Shown here: positions 16,513 to 34,354 of the stretch, piece by piece
Position numbering within the stretch: position 1 is the first letter of the stretch
How the letters are laid out: the number at the start of each line of letters is the position of its first letter
Origin: Hamadaea flava
GTDB taxonomy: Bacteria; Actinomycetota; Actinomycetes; Mycobacteriales; Micromonosporaceae
Direction: 5' to 3'
Length of the DNA stretch: 64,000 nucleotides
Assembly: GCF_024172085.1 (NCBI RefSeq)
Contig: NZ_JAMZDZ010000001.1
Span: 3,348,001-3,412,000, forward strand
Program-made: the position numbers and the translations under genes
Notes under the pieces: model-generated
Databases searched by the model: none
What the model saw: the letters and a program-made list of their open reading frames with translations, nothing else
Told to the model about the DNA's origin: nothing

Positions 16513-16529
16513 CGACCGTGCGACCTGCG

Positions 16530-16535
16530 GATAAT
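16530..16535 (+). promoter_or_regulatory. -10 element of a leaderless promoter
   Basis: GATAAT, 6 bases before the GTG at 16542. The spacing places the transcription start at the initiation codon. Confidence 0.6.
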
Positions 16536-16541
16536 GCGAGC

Positions 16542-17216
16542 GTGACGATCGACGAGGAGTTGCTGCGCCGGTATCCGCGTACGGCGGGGCTCCGGGTCAA
16601 TTTCGTGACCAGCCTGGACGGGGCGGCCGCCGTCGACGGGCTGTCGACCGGCCTGTCCAGCGTCGCCGACAAACAGGTCTTCCGGCTGCTCCGGATGACC
16701 TGCGACGCGCTGCTCGTCGGGGCCGGCACGCTGCGCGACGAGGATTACCGGCCGCTCACGCTCGACCCCGAACGACGGTCCTGGCGTCTGGCGTCCGGGC
16801 TTTCGGCGTATCCCCGCTTGGTGATCTTCAGCCGCATGCTGGCGCTGGACCCCGGGCATCGCGCCCTCCGCGAGGCTCCGGCCCGGCCCCTGGTGGTGAC
16901 GCCCGCCGATCCGGGCGACCACCCGCTGCGCGAGGTCGCGGACGTGCTGGTCGCGGACCTGAGCGAGGCGCTGGCCCGGCTGCGCGCCGACGGGCTCACC
17001 CACCTGCTCTGCGAGGGCGGCCCGACCCTGCTCGGCGCGTTGACCAGCGCGGACCTGGTCGACGAGCTCTGCCTGACACTGTCGCCGGTGCTCACCGGGC
17101 CCGGCGCGACCCGGATGACCGTCGGCCCCGAGCATCCATCGAGACCAATGCGCCTGATCCACGCCATACCCGCTGACCAGGCACTTCTGCTCCGGTACCG
17201 TCGCGCGCATGATTGA
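16542..17216 (+). CDS. RibD C-terminal-type pyrimidine/dihydrofolate reductase-fold protein
   Basis: A 224-residue stand-alone RibD_C domain of the dihydrofolate-reductase fold. It shows the substrate strand VNFVTSLDGAAAVDGLS, the NADPH-side loop LLVGAGTLRDEDYRPL, and LLCEGGPTLLGAL. The family reduces 5-amino-6-ribosylaminouracil phosphate in riboflavin synthesis or related substrates; no deaminase domain is attached, so the substrate is open. The start is GTG 16542 because of the leaderless -10 at 16530; GTG 16518 would overlap the repeat array edge. The stop overlaps the next start by 8 bases. Confidence 0.82.
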   Translation: MTIDEELLRRYPRTAGLRVNFVTSLDGAAAVDGLSTGLSSVADKQVFRLLRMTCDALLVGAGTLRDEDYRPLTLDPERRSWRLASGLSAYPRLVIFSRMLALDPGHRALREAPARPLVVTPADPGDHPLREVADVLVADLSEALARLRADGLTHLLCEGGPTLLGALTSADLVDELCLTLSPVLTGPGATRMTVGPEHPSRPMRLIHAIPADQALLLRYRRAHD

Positions 17217-18213: not shown

Positions 18214-18308
18214 CCTCCCCTGAACGGGGTCCCTCTCCTGTCGCGCACACGACTCGGCACCCTTGCGTACCGGGGTCTTGTCGCAGGATGCCGTTAGGGT
18301 CTGAGGGC

Positions 18309-20090
18309 GTGAGCTTCCCCGCGCACTCCCCCGGCGACCAGACCGGCCCCGGCAGTCCCGTCGGCCGCGTCCTCGGTACGCAGGACGCCAGCCCGCTGAC
18401 CTTCTGGGTGGCCGTCGGCTCCGACGCCTACCTGCAGCTCGACGACGTCGTGGTGACCCAGCGCGACCTGCCCGATCGCGGCACCGTCACGATCTCCGGC
18501 GTCGTCACCGCCGTCCGCGCCCGGCACGAGGGCGCCGCGTTCGAGTCCGACGTCTTCGCCATCGCCGACGGCATGCTGCCCGCGATGGTGCAGGAGGCGG
18601 CCGAGATCACGGTGACCCGGGTCGAGCCCGAGATCTACGTGCCGCCCGCGCCGGGCGCGGTGGCGTACCGGGCGCACGGCGAGACCCGTGACGCCGCGCT
18701 GAGCTTCGACCGGATGCAGCGGCGGCTGCCGATCGGCATCGGCCGCGACGGCGCGCCGCTGTACCTCAACACCGACTTTCTCGACGGCAGCCGGGGCGCG
18801 CACGTCAGCATCTCCGGCATCTCCGGGGTCGCGACGAAGACGAGCTTCGCCACGTTCCTGCTCTACTCCATCTTCACCTCGGGCGTGCTGGGCTCGAAGG
18901 CGGAGTCGGCCAACACCAAGGCGCTCATCTTCAACGTCAAGGGCGAGGACCTGCTCTTCCTCGATCACGAGAACAACAGGCTCGACGAGCCGACCCGGGA
19001 GGCGTACCACAAGCTGGGCCTGGACGCGGGGGCGTTCAAGCAGGTCACGGTGTTCGCGCCGGCGCGGGCCGGGGACCCGTCCGGCAGCCCCGACGTGGCG
19101 AGCCGGCTGACCGGGGTCGACCCGTTCTACTGGACGCTGAGCGAGTTCACCGAGCAGCGCCTGCTGCCTTATGTCTTCGCCGACGCCGACGACGAGCGCC
19201 AGCAGTACACGATGGTCGTCCACGCGGTCGCCGCCCACCTCGCCCGCGAGGCGCAGCCGGCCGGGGGCGGGATCAGCCTGGACGGCACCCGGCTCGGCAG
19301 CTACGACGATTTCGTGGATTACATCGTCGAGCAGCTCAACGACGACGAGACCCGATCCACCTGGGCGGGCAGCTCGGTCGGGCTCGGCACGGTCAACGCC
19401 TTCGCCCGCCGCCTGATCTCCAGCAAGCGGGACCTGTCCCGGCTGATCCGCGGCGACCTGCCCGGCGGCCGGGCGCACCAGATCAGCACCGCCGACGCCG
19501 GTCAGGTGACCGTGGTCGACCTGCACAACCTGCCCGACCGGGCGCAGCGCTTCGTCGTCGGTGTGACGCTGAAGACGGAGTTCGAGCGCAAGGAGAAGGC
19601 GGGCACGGCCAAGCCGCTGCTGTTCGTGGTGCTGGACGAGCTGAACAAGTACGCACCCCGCGACGGCACGAGCCCGATCAAGGAGGTGCTGCTCGACATC
19701 GCCGAGCGCGGCCGGTCGCTGGGCGTGATCCTGATCGGCGCCCAGCAGACGGCGTCGGAGGTCGAGCGCCGGATCGTGTCCAACTCCGCGATCCGGGTGG
19801 TCGGCCGGCTCGACCCGGCCGAGGCCTCGCGACCCGAATACGGCTTCCTGCCGCCCACCCAGCGGCAGCGGGCGCTGCTCGCCAAACCGGGCACGATGTT
19901 CGTGGCGCAGCCGGAGATCCCGGTCCCGCTGGCCGTCGAGTTCCCGTTCCCAGCCTGGGCCACCCGGCCGTCCGAGGCGGGCGCGGCCCCCCGCGCCACG
20001 CTGGCCAGCATGGTCAGTGCGACCGACCCGTTCGCGGTGGTCGGCTCGACACGCGACGGTGGCATCGACGACGACGAGATCCCGTTCTAG
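18309..20090 (+). CDS. herA: HerA-type DNA translocase ATPase
   Basis: A 593-residue AAA+/FtsK-like ATPase of the HerA (DUF87) family. The N-terminus is a HAS-barrel (GRVLGTQDASPLTFWV..., residues 19-75). Walker A is GISGVATKTS (170-179) and Walker B LFVVLDELNKYAP with D443/E444. The block QQTASEVERRIVSNSAIRVVGR matches the sensor/arginine-finger region. HerA forms hexamers that drive NurA nuclease in archaeal end resection; SbcD, SbcC and a NurA-like gene follow directly. The GTG start lies 8 bases after TAGGGT (18295-18300), so it is probably leaderless; the longer upstream frame overlaps the previous gene. Confidence 0.85.
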   Translation: MSFPAHSPGDQTGPGSPVGRVLGTQDASPLTFWVAVGSDAYLQLDDVVVTQRDLPDRGTVTISGVVTAVRARHEGAAFESDVFAIADGMLPAMVQEAAEITVTRVEPEIYVPPAPGAVAYRAHGETRDAALSFDRMQRRLPIGIGRDGAPLYLNTDFLDGSRGAHVSISGISGVATKTSFATFLLYSIFTSGVLGSKAESANTKALIFNVKGEDLLFLDHENNRLDEPTREAYHKLGLDAGAFKQVTVFAPARAGDPSGSPDVASRLTGVDPFYWTLSEFTEQRLLPYVFADADDERQQYTMVVHAVAAHLAREAQPAGGGISLDGTRLGSYDDFVDYIVEQLNDDETRSTWAGSSVGLGTVNAFARRLISSKRDLSRLIRGDLPGGRAHQISTADAGQVTVVDLHNLPDRAQRFVVGVTLKTEFERKEKAGTAKPLLFVVLDELNKYAPRDGTSPIKEVLLDIAERGRSLGVILIGAQQTASEVERRIVSNSAIRVVGRLDPAEASRPEYGFLPPTQRQRALLAKPGTMFVAQPEIPVPLAVEFPFPAWATRPSEAGAAPRATLASMVSATDPFAVVGSTRDGGIDDDEIPF

Positions 20091-20110
20091 CAGCCGGAGA
20101 GGGCTCTGCC

Positions 20111-21250
20111 GTGAAGATCCTGCACACCTCCGACTGGCACGTCGGGAAAGTCCTGAAAGGACAGCCGCGGGCCGAGGAACAGCTCACCGCGTTGGCCTCG
20201 GTCATCGAGGTCGCCCGCGGGGAGCGACCCGACCTGATCATCGTCGCGGGCGACCTGTTCGACACCGCCGCTCCGACGCCCGAGGCCCAGAAGATCGTCT
20301 ACCGGGCGCTGGCAGCGCTCCGGCGACTCGCCGAGATCGTGGTGATCGCCGGCAACCACGACAACGGGCCGGCGCTGGACGCCCTGCGGGTGTTCGCCGA
20401 GTCGGAGAACCTGCACCTGCGCGGCCGGGTCTCCGACAAACCGGCGGACCACCTGATCACCGGGGTGACCCCGGGCGGCGAGCCGTGGCGCTGCATCGCG
20501 CTGCCCTTCCTCTCCCAGCGGTACGCCGTCCGCGCGCTCGACATGTTCGAGCTGACCCAGGCCGAGGCGCACAGCACGTACGCCGACCACCTGTCGCGCC
20601 TGCTCGAGGCGATCGCGGCGGAGAGCTTCACCGACCCGAGCGCGGTCAACCTGGTCACCGCGCACCTGACCGTCGTCGGCGCGGCGATGGGCGGCGGCGA
20701 GCGGGAGGCGCACACGATCCTCGGCTACGCCGTCCCCTCGACGGTGTTCCCGCCGAACACGCACTACGTGGCGTTGGGCCATCTGCACCGGGCGCAGACG
20801 CTCCCCGGGCACTGCCCGGTCCGCTACAGCGGCAGCCCGTTGCCGGTCGACTTCGGCGAGGAGGAGAACCCGCCGTCGGTGACGATCGTCGAGGCCACCG
20901 CCGACACCACGGCGCTCGTCCGGGAGGTTCCGCTGCCGTCCGGGCGGCGGCTGCGTACGCTGCGGGGCACCCTGGAGCAACTGTCCGAGATGGACCCGGG
21001 CGACGACTGGCTGCGCGTCGTGGTGAGCGAGAAGCCGCGCGCCGGGCTGCGCGAGCAGGTGCAGGAGATGCTGCCGCGCGCCCTGGATATCCGGATCGAT
21101 CCGGCGATGCTGGAGACGAAGCACCCCGACCGGCCGGCTCGGGCCGAACGGTCACCGGTCGCGTTGTTCGCCGACTACCTGGCCGACCGTGGTCATGACG
21201 ACCCCGCCACTCAGAAGCTCTTCGAGGAGCTTTACCAGGAGGTGAGCTGA
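20111..21250 (+). CDS. sbcD: Exonuclease subunit SbcD (Mre11 homologue)
   Basis: A 379-residue metallophosphoesterase. The metal motifs SDWHVGK (residues 7-13), GDLFD and GNHD are intact, and a later GHLHRAQ supplies the C-terminal His pair. The length is typical for SbcD. It starts with GTG 20 bases after herA and ends directly against sbcC (TGA then GTG). With SbcC it cleaves hairpins and blocked DNA ends; here it is embedded between HerA and a NurA-like nuclease. Confidence 0.95.
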   Translation: MKILHTSDWHVGKVLKGQPRAEEQLTALASVIEVARGERPDLIIVAGDLFDTAAPTPEAQKIVYRALAALRRLAEIVVIAGNHDNGPALDALRVFAESENLHLRGRVSDKPADHLITGVTPGGEPWRCIALPFLSQRYAVRALDMFELTQAEAHSTYADHLSRLLEAIAAESFTDPSAVNLVTAHLTVVGAAMGGGEREAHTILGYAVPSTVFPPNTHYVALGHLHRAQTLPGHCPVRYSGSPLPVDFGEEENPPSVTIVEATADTTALVREVPLPSGRRLRTLRGTLEQLSEMDPGDDWLRVVVSEKPRAGLREQVQEMLPRALDIRIDPAMLETKHPDRPARAERSPVALFADYLADRGHDDPATQKLFEELYQEVS

Positions 21251-23749
21251 GTGCGCCCGCTCCGGCTGGACCTGCGCGGTTTCGCGATCTTCCGCGAGCA
21301 CACCGTCATCGACCTGACCGACGCCGACTTCTTCGCGCTGGTCGGCCCGACCGGCTCGGGGAAGTCCACCATCCTCGACGCGATCTGCTTCTCGCTCTAC
21401 GGCCAGGTGCCGCGCTGGAGCGGCAAGACCGTCGTGAACGCCCTCGCGCCGTCCGGAATCGAGGCGGCGGTTCGGATGATCTTCGAGTCCGGCGGCCGCC
21501 GCTACGCCGTGACCCGGGTCGTCCGGCGGGACGGCAAGGGCCGGGTCGCCACGAAGCAGGCGGGGCTGCAACTGCTGCCGCCGACGTTCAACGTGGCCGT
21601 GCTCGACGGGGACGAACCCGTCGAAGAGCTGGGCCAGACCCTCGCCGGTACGCCCGTCGAACTGGACGCGGCCGTGGCCGACGTCGTCGGGCTGCCCTAC
21701 GACCAGTTCATCAAGTGCGTCCTGCTGCCGCAGGGCGAGTTCGCGGCGTTCCTGCACGCCAAGCCGGCCGAGCGCCAGGAGATCCTGGTGAAGCTGCTCG
21801 GGCTGGAGGTCTACGAGCAGATCCGCGAGAAGGCCGCCGAGCGGGACAAGGCCGCCGCCCATCAGCTCTCGGCGACCGAACGGCTGCTCGCCGACCTCGC
21901 CGCCGAGTCCGACGACGGACTGCTGGCCGCCGCGCAGGAGCGGGTGGACGCCGTCGAAGCGCTCGCCGCCCGGGTGGTGGCCGAGGCGCCGGGGTTGTCC
22001 GCCCTCGACGCCCAACGCCGGGCGGCGGTCGAAGCGCTGGCCGTGGTGGACGGGCGGCTCACCGCGCTCGGCCGCATCGCCGCACCCGCCGACGCCGGGG
22101 CGTTGGCGACGGCTGGGCAACAGGCCAAGGCCCGGCTCGCCGGTGTCGCGGACGAGCTGACCGCGGCCGAGGAGCACGAGGAGAAGGCGCGCGCTCGCCT
22201 CGACGCGACCGTCGATCCGGCCGACGTAAAGCGCACGCTGGACGGGCTCGCCCGGCTCGCCGCGCTGCGCGCCCGGCAGGGCGACGGGGCGACCGCCTTG
22301 ACGCAGGCCGACAAGGCGCACACGGCCTCGATGCGTACGGTGGAGCAGGCGACGAAGCTGGCGAAGGGCAAGGCCGACGAGGTCGTCCACGCCCAGCACG
22401 CACTGGAGGAGGCGCGCAACACCGACCGGGTGGCGGTGCTGCGGCCGTTGCTCCAGGTCGGGCACGCCTGCCCGGTCTGCGAGCAGTCGGTAGCCACGTT
22501 GCCCGCACAGCGCGAGGTCGGGGCGACCGTCGCCGCCCAGGATCGGCTGAAGCGCGTACGCGCCGAGGCGGAGAAGGCCGACCGTGATCGGCAGACCGCG
22601 GACGACGCCGCGCGGGAGACCGATCGCCGGCTGGCCTCCATCCGCGCCCGCAAGGAACAGCTCGACCAGGAGATCGCTCAGCTGGCCGAGGTGCTCGCCG
22701 GGGCTCCCGAGGAGGCGGAGCTGCACGCCCAACTCGCCGCGCACGCGCAGGCGAAGCAGGCGCTGGACCGGGCCGGGGCGGCGCGGCGCCGTGCGATGGA
22801 ACAGCAGCGCGCCGCCTTGGCCGAGGTGCAGCGGGTCGACGACCGGCTGCGGGCCGCCTGGCGGATCTTCGACACCGCCCGCGACTCGGTCGCCTCCGTG
22901 GTGCCGGGCGGACCGGTCGTCGCCCCGCCGCCGGTCGACCGTGAGGACCTGCAGGCGGCCTGGGCCGGGCTCGCCGAGTGGGCGAAACAGGCCGGTCAAC
23001 AGCTCACCGCGCTGCGGACGGAGGCCGATCAGGCCGCCCGGGAGGCCACCGCCAGCGAGGAGACGGTGCTCGACCGGATCCGGGACTGGTTCGACGAGGC
23101 CGAGGTCGCGATGCCGCGCGAGATCGCCGGGCTCGACCGCGCGGTCACCGTCGCCGTCGAGCGCGCCGCCGCCGCCCGCGACAAGATCCTGGACGCTCGC
23201 AAGCGGGCCGACGATCTGCGGAAGCAGCGCAAGCAGATCGAGACCGAGCGAGCCGTCGCGGCGACGCTGGCCCAGCACCTGAAGGCCAACAACTTCGAGG
23301 CGTGGCTGCTCGAAGAGGCACTGGACGCCCTGGTCGCGGGCGCCTCGGAGATCCTCCGGGAGCTGTCGGCCGGGCAGTACGACCTGATGCACCGCAATCG
23401 TGAGTTCTTCGTGGTCGATCATCACGACGCCGGGCTCACCCGCCCGGTGCGTACGCTGTCCGGCGGGGAGACCTTCCAGGCTTCGCTGGCCCTGGCGCTC
23501 AGTCTGGCCGATCAACTGGCCGGGATGGCGCACGCGGCCAGCCTGGATTCCATCCTGCTGGACGAGGGGTTCGGCACGCTCGACTCGTCCACACTGGACG
23601 TAGTCGCGGCGACGCTGGAGAATCTCGCCGCCCGGGGCGATCGGATGGTGGGTGTGGTGACGCATGTGGCCGCGCTCGCCGAACGCATTCCGGTCCGTTT
23701 CGAGGTACGCAAAGACGCCCGCACCGCCCGAGTGGACAGGATAGGGTAG
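21251..23749 (+). CDS. sbcC: Exonuclease subunit SbcC (Rad50 homologue)
   Basis: An 832-residue SMC-type ATPase: Walker A GPTGSGKST (32-40), long Ala/Glu/Arg coiled coils, zinc hook C407-P-V-C410 in HACPVCEQSV, ABC signature LSGGE (736-740) and Walker B ILLDEGFG with D771/E772. It is shorter than the Escherichia coli protein (about 1050) because the coiled coils are shorter, as is usual in actinobacteria. It binds SbcD and supplies ATP-driven DNA tethering. Confidence 0.95.
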   Translation: MRPLRLDLRGFAIFREHTVIDLTDADFFALVGPTGSGKSTILDAICFSLYGQVPRWSGKTVVNALAPSGIEAAVRMIFESGGRRYAVTRVVRRDGKGRVATKQAGLQLLPPTFNVAVLDGDEPVEELGQTLAGTPVELDAAVADVVGLPYDQFIKCVLLPQGEFAAFLHAKPAERQEILVKLLGLEVYEQIREKAAERDKAAAHQLSATERLLADLAAESDDGLLAAAQERVDAVEALAARVVAEAPGLSALDAQRRAAVEALAVVDGRLTALGRIAAPADAGALATAGQQAKARLAGVADELTAAEEHEEKARARLDATVDPADVKRTLDGLARLAALRARQGDGATALTQADKAHTASMRTVEQATKLAKGKADEVVHAQHALEEARNTDRVAVLRPLLQVGHACPVCEQSVATLPAQREVGATVAAQDRLKRVRAEAEKADRDRQTADDAARETDRRLASIRARKEQLDQEIAQLAEVLAGAPEEAELHAQLAAHAQAKQALDRAGAARRRAMEQQRAALAEVQRVDDRLRAAWRIFDTARDSVASVVPGGPVVAPPPVDREDLQAAWAGLAEWAKQAGQQLTALRTEADQAAREATASEETVLDRIRDWFDEAEVAMPREIAGLDRAVTVAVERAAAARDKILDARKRADDLRKQRKQIETERAVAATLAQHLKANNFEAWLLEEALDALVAGASEILRELSAGQYDLMHRNREFFVVDHHDAGLTRPVRTLSGGETFQASLALALSLADQLAGMAHAASLDSILLDEGFGTLDSSTLDVVAATLENLAARGDRMVGVVTHVAALAERIPVRFEVRKDARTARVDRIG

Positions 23750-23759
23750 AAATCTGGCT

Positions 23760-24704
23760 ATGAGCTTCCACGTCGATGCATGGGACCCGTCCTACGGCGC
23801 CAGCCTCGACGCGTCCGCCCCTGGTCCGGCCGACGGACTCGACGTCGAGGTCGAGCTGCCCGCTGAGCAGTGGCGACCGCTCGACGCCCCGGCCGGGCTG
23901 AAGCCGCCGGCGACCGTGCTGATGGTCGACGGCGTACGCCGGATCGACGCCCGGATCTGGACGGCCGGGATCGGCGGCACCCCGCCGTCCCCCGGGCTGG
24001 CCTGTTCGTACGCCGCCGGGGTCGTCCGCTGCGCCACCGGGACCGCGACCGTCGCCGCCGCCACCGTCGAACGCTCGATCTTCACCTCCGCCGCCGATCA
24101 ATCCGATGTAGACGCCGGGACCACGGTGCGCTACAAGACCGTCCGCATCGAGGGCGCGCAGGACGCCGACCTGATGGCGGCGATGCAGACCGCCTTGATG
24201 CAGCTGGAGCAGCGGACGACCACGGACGTGCTCGCCACCCTCAGCGGGGGCGACGAACTGGTCGTGGTCGACGGCCCACTACGTGGACCGGGCGCGCCGC
24301 CTCGCGTCATCGGGTACGCCAAGACCCAGCAGAAGCAGTACCTGCCCGACCATCTGCTCCCGGTAGTCGGAGCGCTGTCTCCCGGGCAGCGCACGCCGGT
24401 CTTCCGCATCGGCGGGCGCTGGAGCCGATACACCTGGTACCTGCGTCAGCCGGGCGGCATCCCGATCCCGTGGTCGGGCGTCGTCCGCCTGGAATGCTCG
24501 GCCGAACTGGCCCCGGCGCAGGCGATCGAGCTGGCCGAGTTGTCCTGCGTCACCCTCCCCCGGTACGCCTCCAGTGCCGTCAAGGATCCGCGCGCACCCC
24601 AGCAGCTCGTCCCGATCGGAGGGCTCGAACAGCGGCTGCGCCGGATGCTCGGCGACACCAAGCTCCTCCAGCGGGCCCTGGCGGCTGCGTCCGCGCGGAC
24701 GTGA
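23760..24704 (+). CDS. nurA: NurA-like nuclease
   Basis: A 314-residue protein with the landmarks of the NurA 5'-3' nuclease domain: a first acidic site VLMVDGVRRIDARIW (D57), a second VVVDGPLRG (D171), the basic strand VIGYAKTQQKQYL (183-195), FRIGGRWSRYTWYLR and a final acidic strand VVRLECSAEL. The match is by motif order, since NurA proteins diverge strongly. It starts 10 bases after sbcC in a row with herA and sbcD. In archaea NurA works inside the HerA ring with Mre11/Rad50; gene order here predicts the same machine. Confidence 0.7.
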   Translation: MSFHVDAWDPSYGASLDASAPGPADGLDVEVELPAEQWRPLDAPAGLKPPATVLMVDGVRRIDARIWTAGIGGTPPSPGLACSYAAGVVRCATGTATVAAATVERSIFTSAADQSDVDAGTTVRYKTVRIEGAQDADLMAAMQTALMQLEQRTTTDVLATLSGGDELVVVDGPLRGPGAPPRVIGYAKTQQKQYLPDHLLPVVGALSPGQRTPVFRIGGRWSRYTWYLRQPGGIPIPWSGVVRLECSAELAPAQAIELAELSCVTLPRYASSAVKDPRAPQQLVPIGGLEQRLRRMLGDTKLLQRALAAASART

Positions 24705-25606
24705 CCAGGCACAATACAAAGGTGCTAGAGAGACGGCTGGACCTGCCCGCGAGGTACGACTTCGCGGGCACCCTGGGTCAGCTGTCCATGGGCACCCATG
24801 ATCCGTGCCGCCGGTTCATCGACGGCGTGTTCTGGCACGCCGCGCGTACGCCGGACGGCCCGGGTTCACTGGGGCTGCATCGGGACGGCCGGGCCGAGGC
24901 GTACGGGCCGGGCGCGGAGTGGCTGCTCGACCGGGCTGACGCCGTCTTCGGCCTACGGGACGATCTGGGCGAGTTCCGGGCACTGGCTCAAACCCATCCG
25001 GTCGTCGCCGACTTGGCGCACCGGCATGGGGGTCTCCGGCTGCCGGCGACCGGGCAGGTCTTCCCCCACCTCCTCCGCGCGGTATGCGAACAGAAGGTCA
25101 CCGGCAAGGAGGCGTACCAGGCGTACTCCGCGATCGTGCGGCGCTTCCGGGAGCCCGCGCCAGGCCCGCATCCGACCTTGCTGCTGCCGCCGTCGGCGGA
25201 GCAGGTCGGCTCACTGCGCTACTACGACCTCCACCCGCTCGGGCTGGAGCAACGGCGGGCGGACACGTTGCTGCGCGCCGCGCGTACGCCGTGGCCCGAC
25301 CGCGAGCCGGAGGCGACCGCTCGCCGGATGCTGGCCCTGGTGGGGATCGGGCCGTGGACGGTCGCGGAGGTCATGCGCAACGCGCACGGAGATCCGGACG
25401 CCGTCAGCGTCGGCGACTACCACATCAAGAACCAGGTGGCCTGGGCGCTGGCCGGGGAACCCCGCGCGACCGACGAACGGATGCTGGAGCTGCTCGAACC
25501 GTTCCGCGGCCATCGCGGGCGCGTCTGCCAGCTGCTGACCCGGGCCGGGATCGGCGCGCCGAGGTACGGTCCCCGCGCGCCGATCCGCTCCTTCCGCAGC
25601 TACTGA
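24701..25606 (+). CDS. HhH-GPD DNA glycosylase (AlkA-like)
   Basis: About 301 residues. The helix-hairpin-helix is LVGIGPWTVAEVM, followed by the catalytic-Asp region AVSVGDYHIKN, as in 3-methyladenine glycosylases of the AlkA group. No iron-sulfur cluster cysteines are present. Start choice is open: GTG 24701 overlaps the nurA stop (GTGA) and implies coupling; GTG 24722 would give a product 7 residues shorter. Its place at the end of the HerA-SbcCD-NurA row ties base-excision repair to that cluster. Confidence 0.85.
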   Translation: MTRHNTKVLERRLDLPARYDFAGTLGQLSMGTHDPCRRFIDGVFWHAARTPDGPGSLGLHRDGRAEAYGPGAEWLLDRADAVFGLRDDLGEFRALAQTHPVVADLAHRHGGLRLPATGQVFPHLLRAVCEQKVTGKEAYQAYSAIVRRFREPAPGPHPTLLLPPSAEQVGSLRYYDLHPLGLEQRRADTLLRAARTPWPDREPEATARRMLALVGIGPWTVAEVMRNAHGDPDAVSVGDYHIKNQVAWALAGEPRATDERMLELLEPFRGHRGRVCQLLTRAGIGAPRYGPRAPIRSFRSY

Positions 25607-29589: not shown

Positions 29590-30657
29590 ATGAGACTGCC
29601 GCTCACGCCGCCGCTGGAGCCCATGCTCGCCACCGCCGTCCCGGACATCCCGCTGGCCGAGGGGATGAGCTACGAACCCAAGTGGGACGGCTTCCGTTGC
29701 ATCGTGTTCCGCGACGGCGACGAAGTCGCCCTGGCGAGCCGGGGCGGCAAGGATTTCACGCGCTACTTCCCCGAGGTCATCGAGCAGGTCAAGGCTCAGC
29801 TGCCGGAACGCGTAGTGATCGACTGCGAGCTGGTCGTCATCCGGCGCGAGGAGGGCAGGCTCCCCCGGCTGGACTTCGAGCTGCTCGCCCAGCGCATCCA
29901 CCCCGCCGCCAGCCGCGTCCGCAAGCTCGCCGAACAGACGCCGGCCGAGATGGTCGCCTTCGACCTGCTCGCCATCGACGACGAAGACCTCACCCAGACG
30001 CCCTTCCCGCAGCGCCGGGCCCGGCTGGCAGCCGCGCTTTCGGGCGTACGCCCACCGGTGCACGTCACGCCGCTGACGACCGACGCCGAGACGGCCCGCC
30101 GCTGGTTCGTCGACTTCGAGGGAGCCGGGCTCGACGGCCTGATCGCCAAGTCGGCCGATCTGCTCTACGTGCCGAACAAGCGGCTCATGCGCAAGATCAA
30201 GCACGCCCGGACGCTGGACGCGGTCGTCGCCGGGTTCCGCTGGCACAAGTCCGGCCCGATCGTGGGATCGCTGCTGCTCGGGCTCTACGACGACGACGGC
30301 CTGCTGCATTCGATCGGGGTGACCTCGGCGTTCTCCGCCGCACGCCGCAAGGAGTTGCTCGACGAGATCGCCGAGCTGCGCGACCCGGCCGAGCACCCGT
30401 GGCTCGACCCGAAGGAGGGTCAGCGTCTGCCGTCCGCGCCGAACCGGTGGAACTCGACCAAGGACACCTCGTGGGAACCGCTCGCCCCCACCTGGGTGGT
30501 CGAGGTCGGCTTCGACGCGATGGAGGGCGACCGGTTGCGGCACACCGGGCAGTTCGTGCGCTGGCGGCCCGAGCGTGACCCGCGTTCCTGCACCTACGAG
30601 CAGCTCGACCGGCCGATCAGGCTGGACGTCGAAGAGGTGCTCGCGGGCGGCAAGTAG
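29590..30657 (+). CDS. ligC: ATP-dependent DNA ligase (LigC type)
   Basis: A 355-residue ATP-dependent ligase. Nucleotidyl-transfer motif I is EPKWDGFR with the AMP-accepting Lys31; DCELVV is motif III, DGLIAKS motif IV and KIKH motif V, followed by an OB-fold. No extra polymerase or phosphoesterase domain is attached, as in mycobacterial LigC, which acts in back-up end-joining or short-patch repair. A separate LigD-type polymerase gene lies 2.7 kb further on; Ku is not in the window. Confidence 0.92.
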   Translation: MRLPLTPPLEPMLATAVPDIPLAEGMSYEPKWDGFRCIVFRDGDEVALASRGGKDFTRYFPEVIEQVKAQLPERVVIDCELVVIRREEGRLPRLDFELLAQRIHPAASRVRKLAEQTPAEMVAFDLLAIDDEDLTQTPFPQRRARLAAALSGVRPPVHVTPLTTDAETARRWFVDFEGAGLDGLIAKSADLLYVPNKRLMRKIKHARTLDAVVAGFRWHKSGPIVGSLLLGLYDDDGLLHSIGVTSAFSAARRKELLDEIAELRDPAEHPWLDPKEGQRLPSAPNRWNSTKDTSWEPLAPTWVVEVGFDAMEGDRLRHTGQFVRWRPERDPRSCTYEQLDRPIRLDVEEVLAGGK

Positions 30658-33346: not shown

Positions 33347-34354
33347 TCACTCGGACGGGGTGCGCGCACGACTAGGTTGCACGCGCATCGGCTCCCCCGG
33401 CATCTTCGGGTAATCCGGCGGATACGGCTGTTCGACCGGGTCGGCCGCCCACCACTCCATGAGGGTCTCCAGCCCGAAAACCTCACCCTCGCGGTCGGCC
33501 CACGGATCGCCCGTCGCCGCCAGCCGCTTCGGCACGGTACGCAGATCGAAGTCGTTCGGGTCGACGTCGCGCAGCTCGTCCCAGCCGACCGGGGCGCTCG
33601 CGGTCGCCCTTTCGTTGGCCCGCAACGAGTACGCAGCCGCGATGGTCCGGTCGCGGGACATCTGGTTGAAGTCGATGAAGATGCGTTCGCCGCGCTCTTC
33701 CTTCCACCACGCCATCGTCACGCGCTCGGGATGCCGCCGCTCCAGCTCCCGGCCGAAGGCGATGGCGGCGTGCCGGGCCTCGATGAAGTCCCACTCCGGG
33801 CGTACGCGGACGAACAGGTGGATGCCCCGCCCGCCGGAAGTCTTCGGGTACGCCGTCAACCCCGCCTCGGCGAACAGCTCGCGAGCCAGGAAGGCCACCT
33901 CGACGGCGTCGGAGAAGTCCGTCCCCGGCTGGGGATCGAGGTCGATCCGCAGCTCGTCCGGATGGTCCGGGCGCTGTCCGCGTACCGGCCAGGGGTGGAA
34001 CACGATCGTGCCCATCTGCGCCGCCCACGCCAGGTGCGCCGGCTCGGTCGGGCACAGCTCGATGGCCTTGCGCCCGCTCGGGAAGGTGATCTGGGCGGTC
34101 GTCAGCCAGTCGGGCACACCCCGCTCGGGTACGCGCTTCTGATAGAACGCCTCACCGGTGATCCCGTCGGGGAACCGCTGCAACGTCGTCGGCCGGTCGC
34201 CGACCGCGCGCAGCATCGCCTCCCCGACGGCCAGGTAATACTCGAAGACGTCCCGCTTGGTGTAGCCCCGCGAGGGAAAGATGATCTTGTCGGGACTGCT
34301 GAGTCTTACGGATCGCTTACCGACCTCATACGTCTGCGCCTCGGCCTTGGGCAT
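33347..34354 (-). CDS. LigD-type polymerase (PolDom) of end-joining
   Basis: A 335-residue archaeo-eukaryotic primase-type polymerase. It has the RFPDGI and FYQK substrate-site blocks, the catalytic Asp pair in [11 protein letters not shown], and the [10 protein letters not shown] loop. It is stand-alone, without ligase or phosphoesterase domains. With the nearby LigC it could form a split NHEJ or gap-repair system, as in mycobacteria and streptomycetes with separate genes. The ATG lies 6 bases after TAGCGT, back to back with the msrB promoter. Confidence 0.9.

Follow-up and report, generated by a model that had tools for sequence, protein, structure and literature searches.

Gene sets that place the translocase HerA and the nuclease NurA beside Mre11 and Rad50 (SbcD and SbcC in bacteria) are of a kind that is already known. 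In the archaeon Sulfolobus acidocaldarius, a herA-mre11-rad50-nurA operon is reported to be co-transcribed (PMC2288612), and a bacterial four-gene cluster, nurA-hepA-sbcD-sbcC, was published for Oceanithermus profundus in 2017 (PMC5448004). In Deinococcus radiodurans, a HerA hexamer and a NurA dimer (6:2) are reported to translocate at the expense of ATP, digesting the 5′ tail as they go (PMC9960219). This study concerns a herA-sbcD-sbcC-nurA cluster in the actinobacterium Hamadaea flava (Micromonosporaceae), lying in a 64,000-nucleotide stretch (positions 3,348,001–3,412,000, hereafter the window) of its 8.86 Mb, single-contig genome. The system proves to be core in its family, and it is probable, from the combined analysis, that these genes form an operon encoding a chromosomal, DNA-damage-inducible machine that processes double-strand DNA ends for resection-type repair. 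No description of a HerA/NurA system in actinobacteria was found in the literature searched, which excluded subscription journals.

The cluster and its proteins

The four genes are consecutive on the plus strand at 18309–24704, separated by 20, 0, and 10 bases; the open reading frame coordinates agree with those of a preliminary description made from the sequence alone, which had named the genes and called the set an archaeal-style DNA end-resection cluster. The features are:

18309–20090, plus strand: herA, 593 residues, GTG start; bacterial-type HerA translocase
18816–18845: Walker A motif of HerA
19635–19661: DELNKYAPR of HerA, holding Walker B and the pore arginine R451
20111–21250, plus strand: sbcD, 379 residues; Mre11-type nuclease with motifs DWHVG, GDLFD, GNHD, and GHLH
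21251–23749, plus strand: sbcC, 832 residues; Rad50-type ATPase with Walker A GPTGSGKST, signature LSGGE, and Walker B LLDEGFG
22469–22480: CPVC hook motif of SbcC
23760–24704, plus strand: nurA, 314 residues; predicted bacterial-type NurA nuclease
23925–23936 and 24267–24278: VDGV with D57 and VDGP with D171 of NurA
24312–24326 and 24582–24599: GYAKT with K188 and KDPRAP with R278 of NurA

NurA had been recognized by eye from D57, D171, and GYAKTQQKQYL, all of which are present, and the call is confirmed by both sequence and fold. The D. radiodurans NurA (PDB entry 7f6d) is its sole PDB sequence match at E ≤ 0.001 (phmmer, E 7.4e-22). A single-chain AlphaFold2 model, built with 36 relatives (pLDDT 87.5, pTM 0.86), retrieves NurA proteins of D. 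radiodurans (7f6d, E 2.8e-20), Thermotoga (2.5e-13), and Sulfolobus (5.5e-6) as its best PDB matches in Foldseek. Z scores for aligning the model to these structures are 22.7 for 7f6d_G (rmsd 3.2, 292 residues aligned), 23.6 for the Thermotoga NurA 1zup (rmsd 3.4, 268 aligned), and 15.1 for the Sulfolobus protein; the structure prediction proposed earlier as a check thus returned a NurA fold (Z 22.7–23.6). With endonuclease V and Argonaute, the model has no more than the general RNase H-like fold in common. As predicted, then, the window protein has the RNase H-like NurA fold.

Mutation of D53, K201, or R309 is reported to abolish the nuclease activity of D. radiodurans NurA (PMC9960219). These residues align with D57, K188, and R278 of the window protein, which are invariant in 36 NurA sequences; together with D171 they are also invariant in 24 diverse NurAs, down to 30% identity to the window NurA. 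No model in Pfam, NCBIfam, or PADLOC matches the window NurA (that of the Pfam NurA family, PF09376, does not do so even at E ≤ 10), and a search with the Pfam NurA model across the whole H. flava genome found nothing. The NurA of a Gemmatimonadota cluster of the same kind (L137) scores 33.1 bits with the Pfam NurA model, above its cut-off of 21, and the miss in the window is therefore attributed to the reach of the model. An illusion created by short motifs is ruled out by the phmmer match, the Foldseek match, and the fold alignment.

The identities first given to HerA, SbcD, and SbcC are likewise supported by sequence matches, models, and motifs. HerA matches its D. radiodurans counterpart (7f6d) with a phmmer E of 2.3e-141, and K175, T176, D220, D487, E488, R495, and R552 of the latter correspond to K177, T178, D214, D443, E444, R451, and R508 in the window, all kept. 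Judged by sequence, the protein has the residues that mark a HerA: the Walker A Lys and Thr, the Walker B Asp-Glu pair, and equivalents of the catalytic D220 and of the pore arginines R495 and R552. PADLOC HerA models match it weakly. SbcD scores 174.1 bits against the bacterial SbcD model TIGR00619 (cut-off 77.65) and carries the phosphodiesterase motifs. SbcC scores 262.7 bits against TIGR00618, under the cut-off of 478.5, with Walker A and B, signature, and CPVC motifs present.

The comparison with known systems is a divided one. With D. radiodurans, the window shares the types of HerA and NurA, the mapped catalytic and translocation residues, and the NurA fold, and the nearest characterized relatives of the window pair are bacterial. 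However, the D. radiodurans pair was studied without SbcCD, whereas the H. flava genes stand in a likely operon with it. The archaeal operon has the same four functions clustered, and its adjacency of four genes on one strand is found in H. flava too, but its proteins are of archaeal type. "Archaeal-style" accordingly holds for gene content but not for the proteins: HerA, NurA, and SbcCD are bacterial, and the window HerA falls below the cut-offs of both archaeal HerA equivalog models (NF040819, 15.8 bits against 970; NF040937, 10.9 bits against 800).

Distribution, gene orders, and a dedicated SbcCD

NurA was found in 38 of 61 relatives, comprising 35 of the 37 Micromonosporaceae genomes and 3 of 24 genomes from other families in the order. 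In the two family members where NurA was not matched (G028 and G036), herA-sbcD-sbcC runs to the contig end; in a third (G004, locus L034), the NurA and SbcD matches are each split in two pieces, perhaps by frameshifts or assembly errors. At 30 of 31 family loci (L031–L061) the four genes share one strand and the gene order of the window, and are thus neighbors in related genomes, as the preliminary description had left to be checked. The lone exception, L043, has no herA on its stretch, and in L038 and L055 herA is 3–4 kb upstream of sbcD. Three further loci (L065–L067) have stretches too short for the order to be judged and stand outside this count. Chance neighborhood is excluded by these same-order loci together with the clusters in other classes and phyla.

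The cluster extends well beyond the family. In a sample of 396 Actinomycetota, NurA occurs in 76 genomes (about a fifth). HerA matches at E ≤ 0.001 are found in 143, of which 76 are strong (E ≤ 1e-81); strong HerA and NurA occur jointly in 74 and strong HerA alone in two, while in G123 and G357 the NurA match is weak and HerA is of a divergent type. A third type of HerA, of 565–735 residues, lies beside a very divergent NurA in L221, L225, and L226 (G123, G071, and G332), with sbcD-sbcC on the same stretch in two of them. The surprise first expressed at finding the set in an actinobacterium is correspondingly smaller. HerA–NurA is described in reports on the Deinococcus proteins as occurring "only in a few bacteria" (PMC9960219, PMC4663267), which is contradicted by the 76 of 396 Actinomycetota and by the occurrences in other phyla.

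Two gene orders were distinguished, herA-sbcD-sbcC-nurA (order A) and nurA-herA-sbcD-sbcC (order B). The survey of gene order in Actinobacteria that had been proposed found the four genes together in both: 10 of the 19 loci from other actinobacterial families have order A and 9 have order B (L114 and L122 are counted as order A, their herA lying just past the stretch and being placed by match positions). With one genome scanned per species, at least 584 HerA relatives were confirmed, of which the best 80 were kept. HerA and NurA are both on the stretch in 63 of these 80, in order B at 39 loci and order A at 24, and sbcD is also present in 57 of the 63. The 17 without NurA, many on stretches cut by contig ends, comprise 13 herA-sbcD-sbcC (one of the 17, L189, has 2.3 kb beyond sbcC), one herA-sbcD, and three herA alone. 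In Pseudonocardia thermophila and P. spinosispora (L190 and L206), herA is alone, with no sbcCD or nurA in 9 kb on either side, and the operon seems to be split in some Pseudonocardia. Record titles among the best 80 include Gemmatimonadetes, Acidobacteria, Eremiobacterota, Dehalococcoidia, Spirochaetaceae, and Thermaceae, as well as Pseudonocardia, Kineosporia, and many Acidimicrobiia; many of the records are metagenome-assembled genomes, some of them maybe misbinned, and the single Bacteroidota record groups with actinobacteria. The O. profundus cluster has the same four genes with NurA first, which is order B. That arrangement was read in its report as recruitment of SbcCD in one Thermales genus (PMC5448004), whereas order B is found here in several phyla.

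Trees were computed from thinned sets (58 of 98 SbcD rows and 62 of 91 HerA rows) of non-archaeal sequences. Order A occupies one side of a branch with SH-aLRT 98 in the SbcD tree and support of 91 in the HerA tree, the latter being under the 95 mark and accompanied by flagged long branches. Order B forms one group in the HerA tree but not in the SbcD tree (four changes, at least two forced), where stand-alone SbcDs fall among those of order B. Mean HerA identity is 0.70 within order A, 0.57 within order B, and 0.46 between them. Distances among the four proteins correlate with r of 0.90–0.96 over 91 loci, which shared ancestry alone could give. The window SbcD belongs to a 12-member group with full support that also holds Planosporangium, Micromonospora, and Actinoplanes, and Planosporangium is the closest named row in the HerA tree.

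The SbcD of the cluster belongs to a lineage of its own. Proteins at least 50% identical to it occur in 40 of the 61 relatives (37 family members and the three other NurA carriers); among the 21 others, SbcD is no more than 37% identical in 13 and absent from 8. These 40 are precisely the relatives that carry NurA or whose cluster is truncated where a contig stops. Of ten stand-alone SbcDs from the order's other families, nine form a separate group beside that of Escherichia coli, and the tenth (L212) does not join them. H. flava itself has a second SbcCD at about 2,058,000–2,062,300 of G000:C1, with an SbcD 37% identical to that of the cluster. In this second SbcCD (L209 3019–7316; G000:C1:2055000–2070000), SbcD groups with a Dehalococcoidia cluster SbcD (SH-aLRT 91), and the pair is perhaps a relic of another HerA-NurA-SbcCD cluster.

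Actinobacteria had been said at the outset to be normally portrayed in terms of AdnAB or RecBCD plus SbcCD alone. The contrast with AdnAB is not an either/or, since the H. flava genome also encodes two tandem UvrD-like helicases with C-terminal PD-(D/E)XK domains, which we take to be the make-up of AdnAB. PDDEXK_1 proteins, whose domain occurs in AdnAB nucleases but also in others, are present in all 61 relatives. RecC is found in 8 of the 61, including one of the 37 family genomes and none of the three other NurA carriers. There is thus a hint, confounded by descent, that HerA–NurA coexists here with an AdnAB-type pair and for the most part without RecBCD. D. radiodurans differs from H. flava with its AdnAB-type pair, being said to lack RecBCD and AddAB (PMC9960219).

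Promoter-like site and genomic neighborhood

Three features flank the cluster:

16518–17216, plus strand: RibD-C reductase gene, upstream neighbor conserved in the family, with no known role in the machine
18278–18300, plus strand: RecA-NDp/PafBC-like site, TTGTCGCAG-N8-TAGGGT
24701–25606, plus strand: AlkA-like HhH-GPD DNA glycosylase, with a GTG at 24701 and a 4-base overlap with the end of nurA

The promoter-like site begins 31 bases before the herA start. The RecA-NDp consensus, reportedly given by Gamulin in 2004 as TTGTCRGTG-N8-TAnnnT, differs from it at two positions. In the region from 150 bases upstream to 30 bases downstream of order A herA starts, sites with at most two mismatches to this consensus were found at 12 of 74 loci, whereas 4325 random windows from the same loci yielded 12; two of the 12 herA loci have exact sites (Kineosporia). 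The count peaks at a spacer of 8, other spacers from 4 to 12 giving 0–4 loci and the reversed consensus one. A relaxed pattern, TGTCR-N11-YANNNT, occurs at 37 of 67 loci against 20 of 3923, an enrichment inflated by the pattern having been shaped after inspection of the sites; the two-mismatch comparison is the stricter of the two. The recA gene of H. flava has TTGTCAGAC-N8-TAACGT about 100 bases before its RecA domain match, with as many mismatches as the herA site, and one PafC over the cut-off is encoded in the genome. Four exact RecA-NDp matches occur genome-wide (none with the reversed pattern), and no link to repair was recognized for the genes downstream of them. The mycobacterial PafBC regulon is reported to include RecBCD, AdnAB, and RecA (PMC8223512). 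To judge from these sequence patterns, the cluster is likely to be induced by DNA damage through a PafBC/RecA-NDp-like promoter.

A RibD-type gene is found upstream on the same strand at 21 of the 31 family loci and at 17 of the 19 named Micromonosporaceae loci, mostly less than 350 bases from herA; several loci scored as lacking it had short upstream sequence. Given this conservation, the cluster is placed at a fixed chromosomal site. At L040, L042, L044, and L045 the RibD-type gene ends at most 8 bases from herA and is perhaps a fifth operon gene. No good promoter site was seen at these four loci, as is expected if herA shares the promoter of the upstream gene.

The coupling to AlkA proposed in the preliminary description stands in the window, where the gene follows and overlaps nurA, but AlkA is a variable neighbor elsewhere. 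At 10 of 37 loci of relatives it shares the strand of nurA and lies no more than 110 bases away, and an eleventh (G005) was seen on a longer stretch, so that AlkA was rejected as a fixed part of the unit. An ATP-dependent DNA ligase gene and a LigD-type primase-polymerase gene are located at 29590–30657 and 33347–34354, 5–10 kb from the cluster; on the stretches of relatives, the ligase gene was found only at L031, L056, and L059.

Phage records gave no NurA match, and the 72,556 plasmid records gave four, one of which is 11.85 Mb long and probably a chromosome. HerA matches were found in six plasmid records and in 3 of 50,697 phage records, the latter at 26–29% identity. Of ten flanking proteins compared with PADLOC, nine have no match and the tenth matches a TAP-like protein model. 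A mobile or defence island around the window copy was rejected on the basis of the fixed site, the plasmid and phage scans, and these neighbors.

Accessory copies were found in other settings. One genome with an ordinary cluster elsewhere has a second, divergent nurA-herA-sbcD-sbcC (L222 2286–10594, G204:C15), directly preceded by a gene with a helix-turn-helix and an IrrE/M78 peptidase (PADLOC PD-Lambda-2_B, 108 bits; capP, 55 bits) and with a DUF3800 gene near; this set looks like a damage-sensing or defence version. A herA-sbcD-sbcC-nurA cluster on the 452 kb linear plasmid NZ_CP134205.1 of Streptomyces sp. BB1-1-1 (L238 1702–11008) adjoins an ImmA/IrrE peptidase gene, with DUF2397 and restriction endonuclease genes close by; its nurA is annotated "hypothetical protein." As both copies stand beside IrrE/ImmA genes, defence-like versions of the cluster probably exist.

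Proposed function and alternatives

In the proposed repair machine, SbcCD (of Mre11–Rad50 type) would bind and open blocked or hairpin ends. The HerA hexamer, capped by a NurA dimer, would then translocate on the duplex by ATP hydrolysis, and NurA would cut the 5′ strand during translocation, leaving a 3′ tail for RecA. The machine would act alongside AdnAB and, in Micromonosporaceae with their single RecC among 37 genomes, is a candidate for filling part of the place of RecBCD. We infer complex formation, polarity, induction, and the division of labor; the assignment of end preparation to SbcCD and of resection to HerA–NurA is transferred from D. radiodurans and from the reported binding of archaeal Mre11 to HerA (PMC2288612).

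Several observations weigh against a resection machine under damage control. The acidic NurA-binding patch of D. radiodurans HerA (D78/E80/D81) is only in part kept in the window protein, E80 and D81 being changed. SbcCD is not always linked: 6 of the 63 loci with HerA and NurA among the best 80 have nurA-herA without sbcD. Three of these (L129, L136, and L140) reach the end of the contig or come close to it; the other three (L133–L135, from Eremiobacterota and a similar genome) continue for kilobases, yet no sbcCD was seen. In this they resemble Deinococcus and Thermus, and the link with SbcCD seems to have been lost or never made. As to the promoter, 51 of the 74 loci carry at least four mismatches, and the effective sample is smaller than 74 because the loci are related (four of the 12 with sites are from one genus). 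Sites as close to the consensus as that of the window herA, two mismatches away, are found at three further places in the 64 kb; the best site of the genome's own adn pair has three mismatches, none there being comparable to that of herA. Deletion of nurA or herA in D. radiodurans is reported to improve tolerance of mitomycin C and ultraviolet light (PMC9960219), and HerA–NurA of Thermococcus kodakarensis is reported to cut both strands, its authors doubting resection (PMC12977600).

Other functions were considered. If the cluster were a destroyer of phage or plasmid DNA, HerA–NurA and SbcCD would degrade both strands of foreign linear DNA, a role known for other HerA–nuclease pairs. TdpAB, which we take to be an anti-phage pair, is a structural neighbor of the window NurA (Z 14.4), one of its chains having a NurA-like fold, though the partners in the window are SbcCD; the accessory copies beside IrrE/ImmA genes, with DUF2397 and a restriction endonuclease on the Streptomyces plasmid, point the same way, as does the defence role proposed for the T. 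kodakarensis proteins (mBio 2026, PMC12977600). The window copy, however, belongs to the core type and occupies a fixed place in the chromosome, with NurA scarce in plasmid records and absent from phage records and nine of ten flanking proteins unmatched in PADLOC; the defence-island or mobile context of HerA-based systems such as TdpAB, MADS, and HerA-Sir2 is not found around it. A defence function is, on this balance, rather unlikely for the window copy. SbcCD cleaves hairpins, and the complex might instead clear abnormal ends and structures (hairpins, reversed forks, protein-blocked ends), NurA–HerA trimming after SbcCD while AdnAB carries out resection. The AdnAB-type pair and the universal PDDEXK_1 proteins are in keeping with such a role, as are the mild or inverse phenotypes reported for D. 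radiodurans herA and nurA mutants (PMC9960219, PMC4663267); the present results do not set it apart from resection, and against it stands the reported digestion of the 5′ tail by D. radiodurans NurA–HerA with ATP (PMC9960219), and it is considered improbable, more so than defence. A recent import of archaeal genes, which the same gene set in hyperthermophilic archaea (PMC2288612) might bring to mind, is highly implausible. The proteins are of bacterial type and common to the family and beyond, and a recent import is contradicted by the low archaeal HerA model scores, by the family-wide presence, and by a G+C of 71–73.5% at 18–26 kb, inside the 65–73.5% range of the whole window.

Resection-type repair is therefore preferred. 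It is tempting, if doubtful, to go further and regard the cluster as a third, PafBC-controlled end-processing machine of Actinomycetota beside AdnAB, standing in the place of RecBCD in Micromonosporaceae and belonging to a four-gene system that predates the split of several phyla, with housekeeping and IrrE-linked defence versions.

As far as the literature searched goes, what is new is the spread of the system, its core status in Micromonosporaceae, and its two gene orders, along with the dedicated SbcCD lineage, the presence of an AdnAB-type pair in the same genome, and the promoter-like site. Such a system is easily overlooked, as no Pfam, NCBIfam, or PADLOC model recognizes the window NurA and the plasmid nurA is annotated as hypothetical. 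It belongs to the core of a family whose members include the mesophilic, culturable Micromonospora and Actinoplanes, and such hosts would allow a direct look at the dispute over whether HerA–NurA and Mre11–Rad50 resect DNA for recombination or destroy it.

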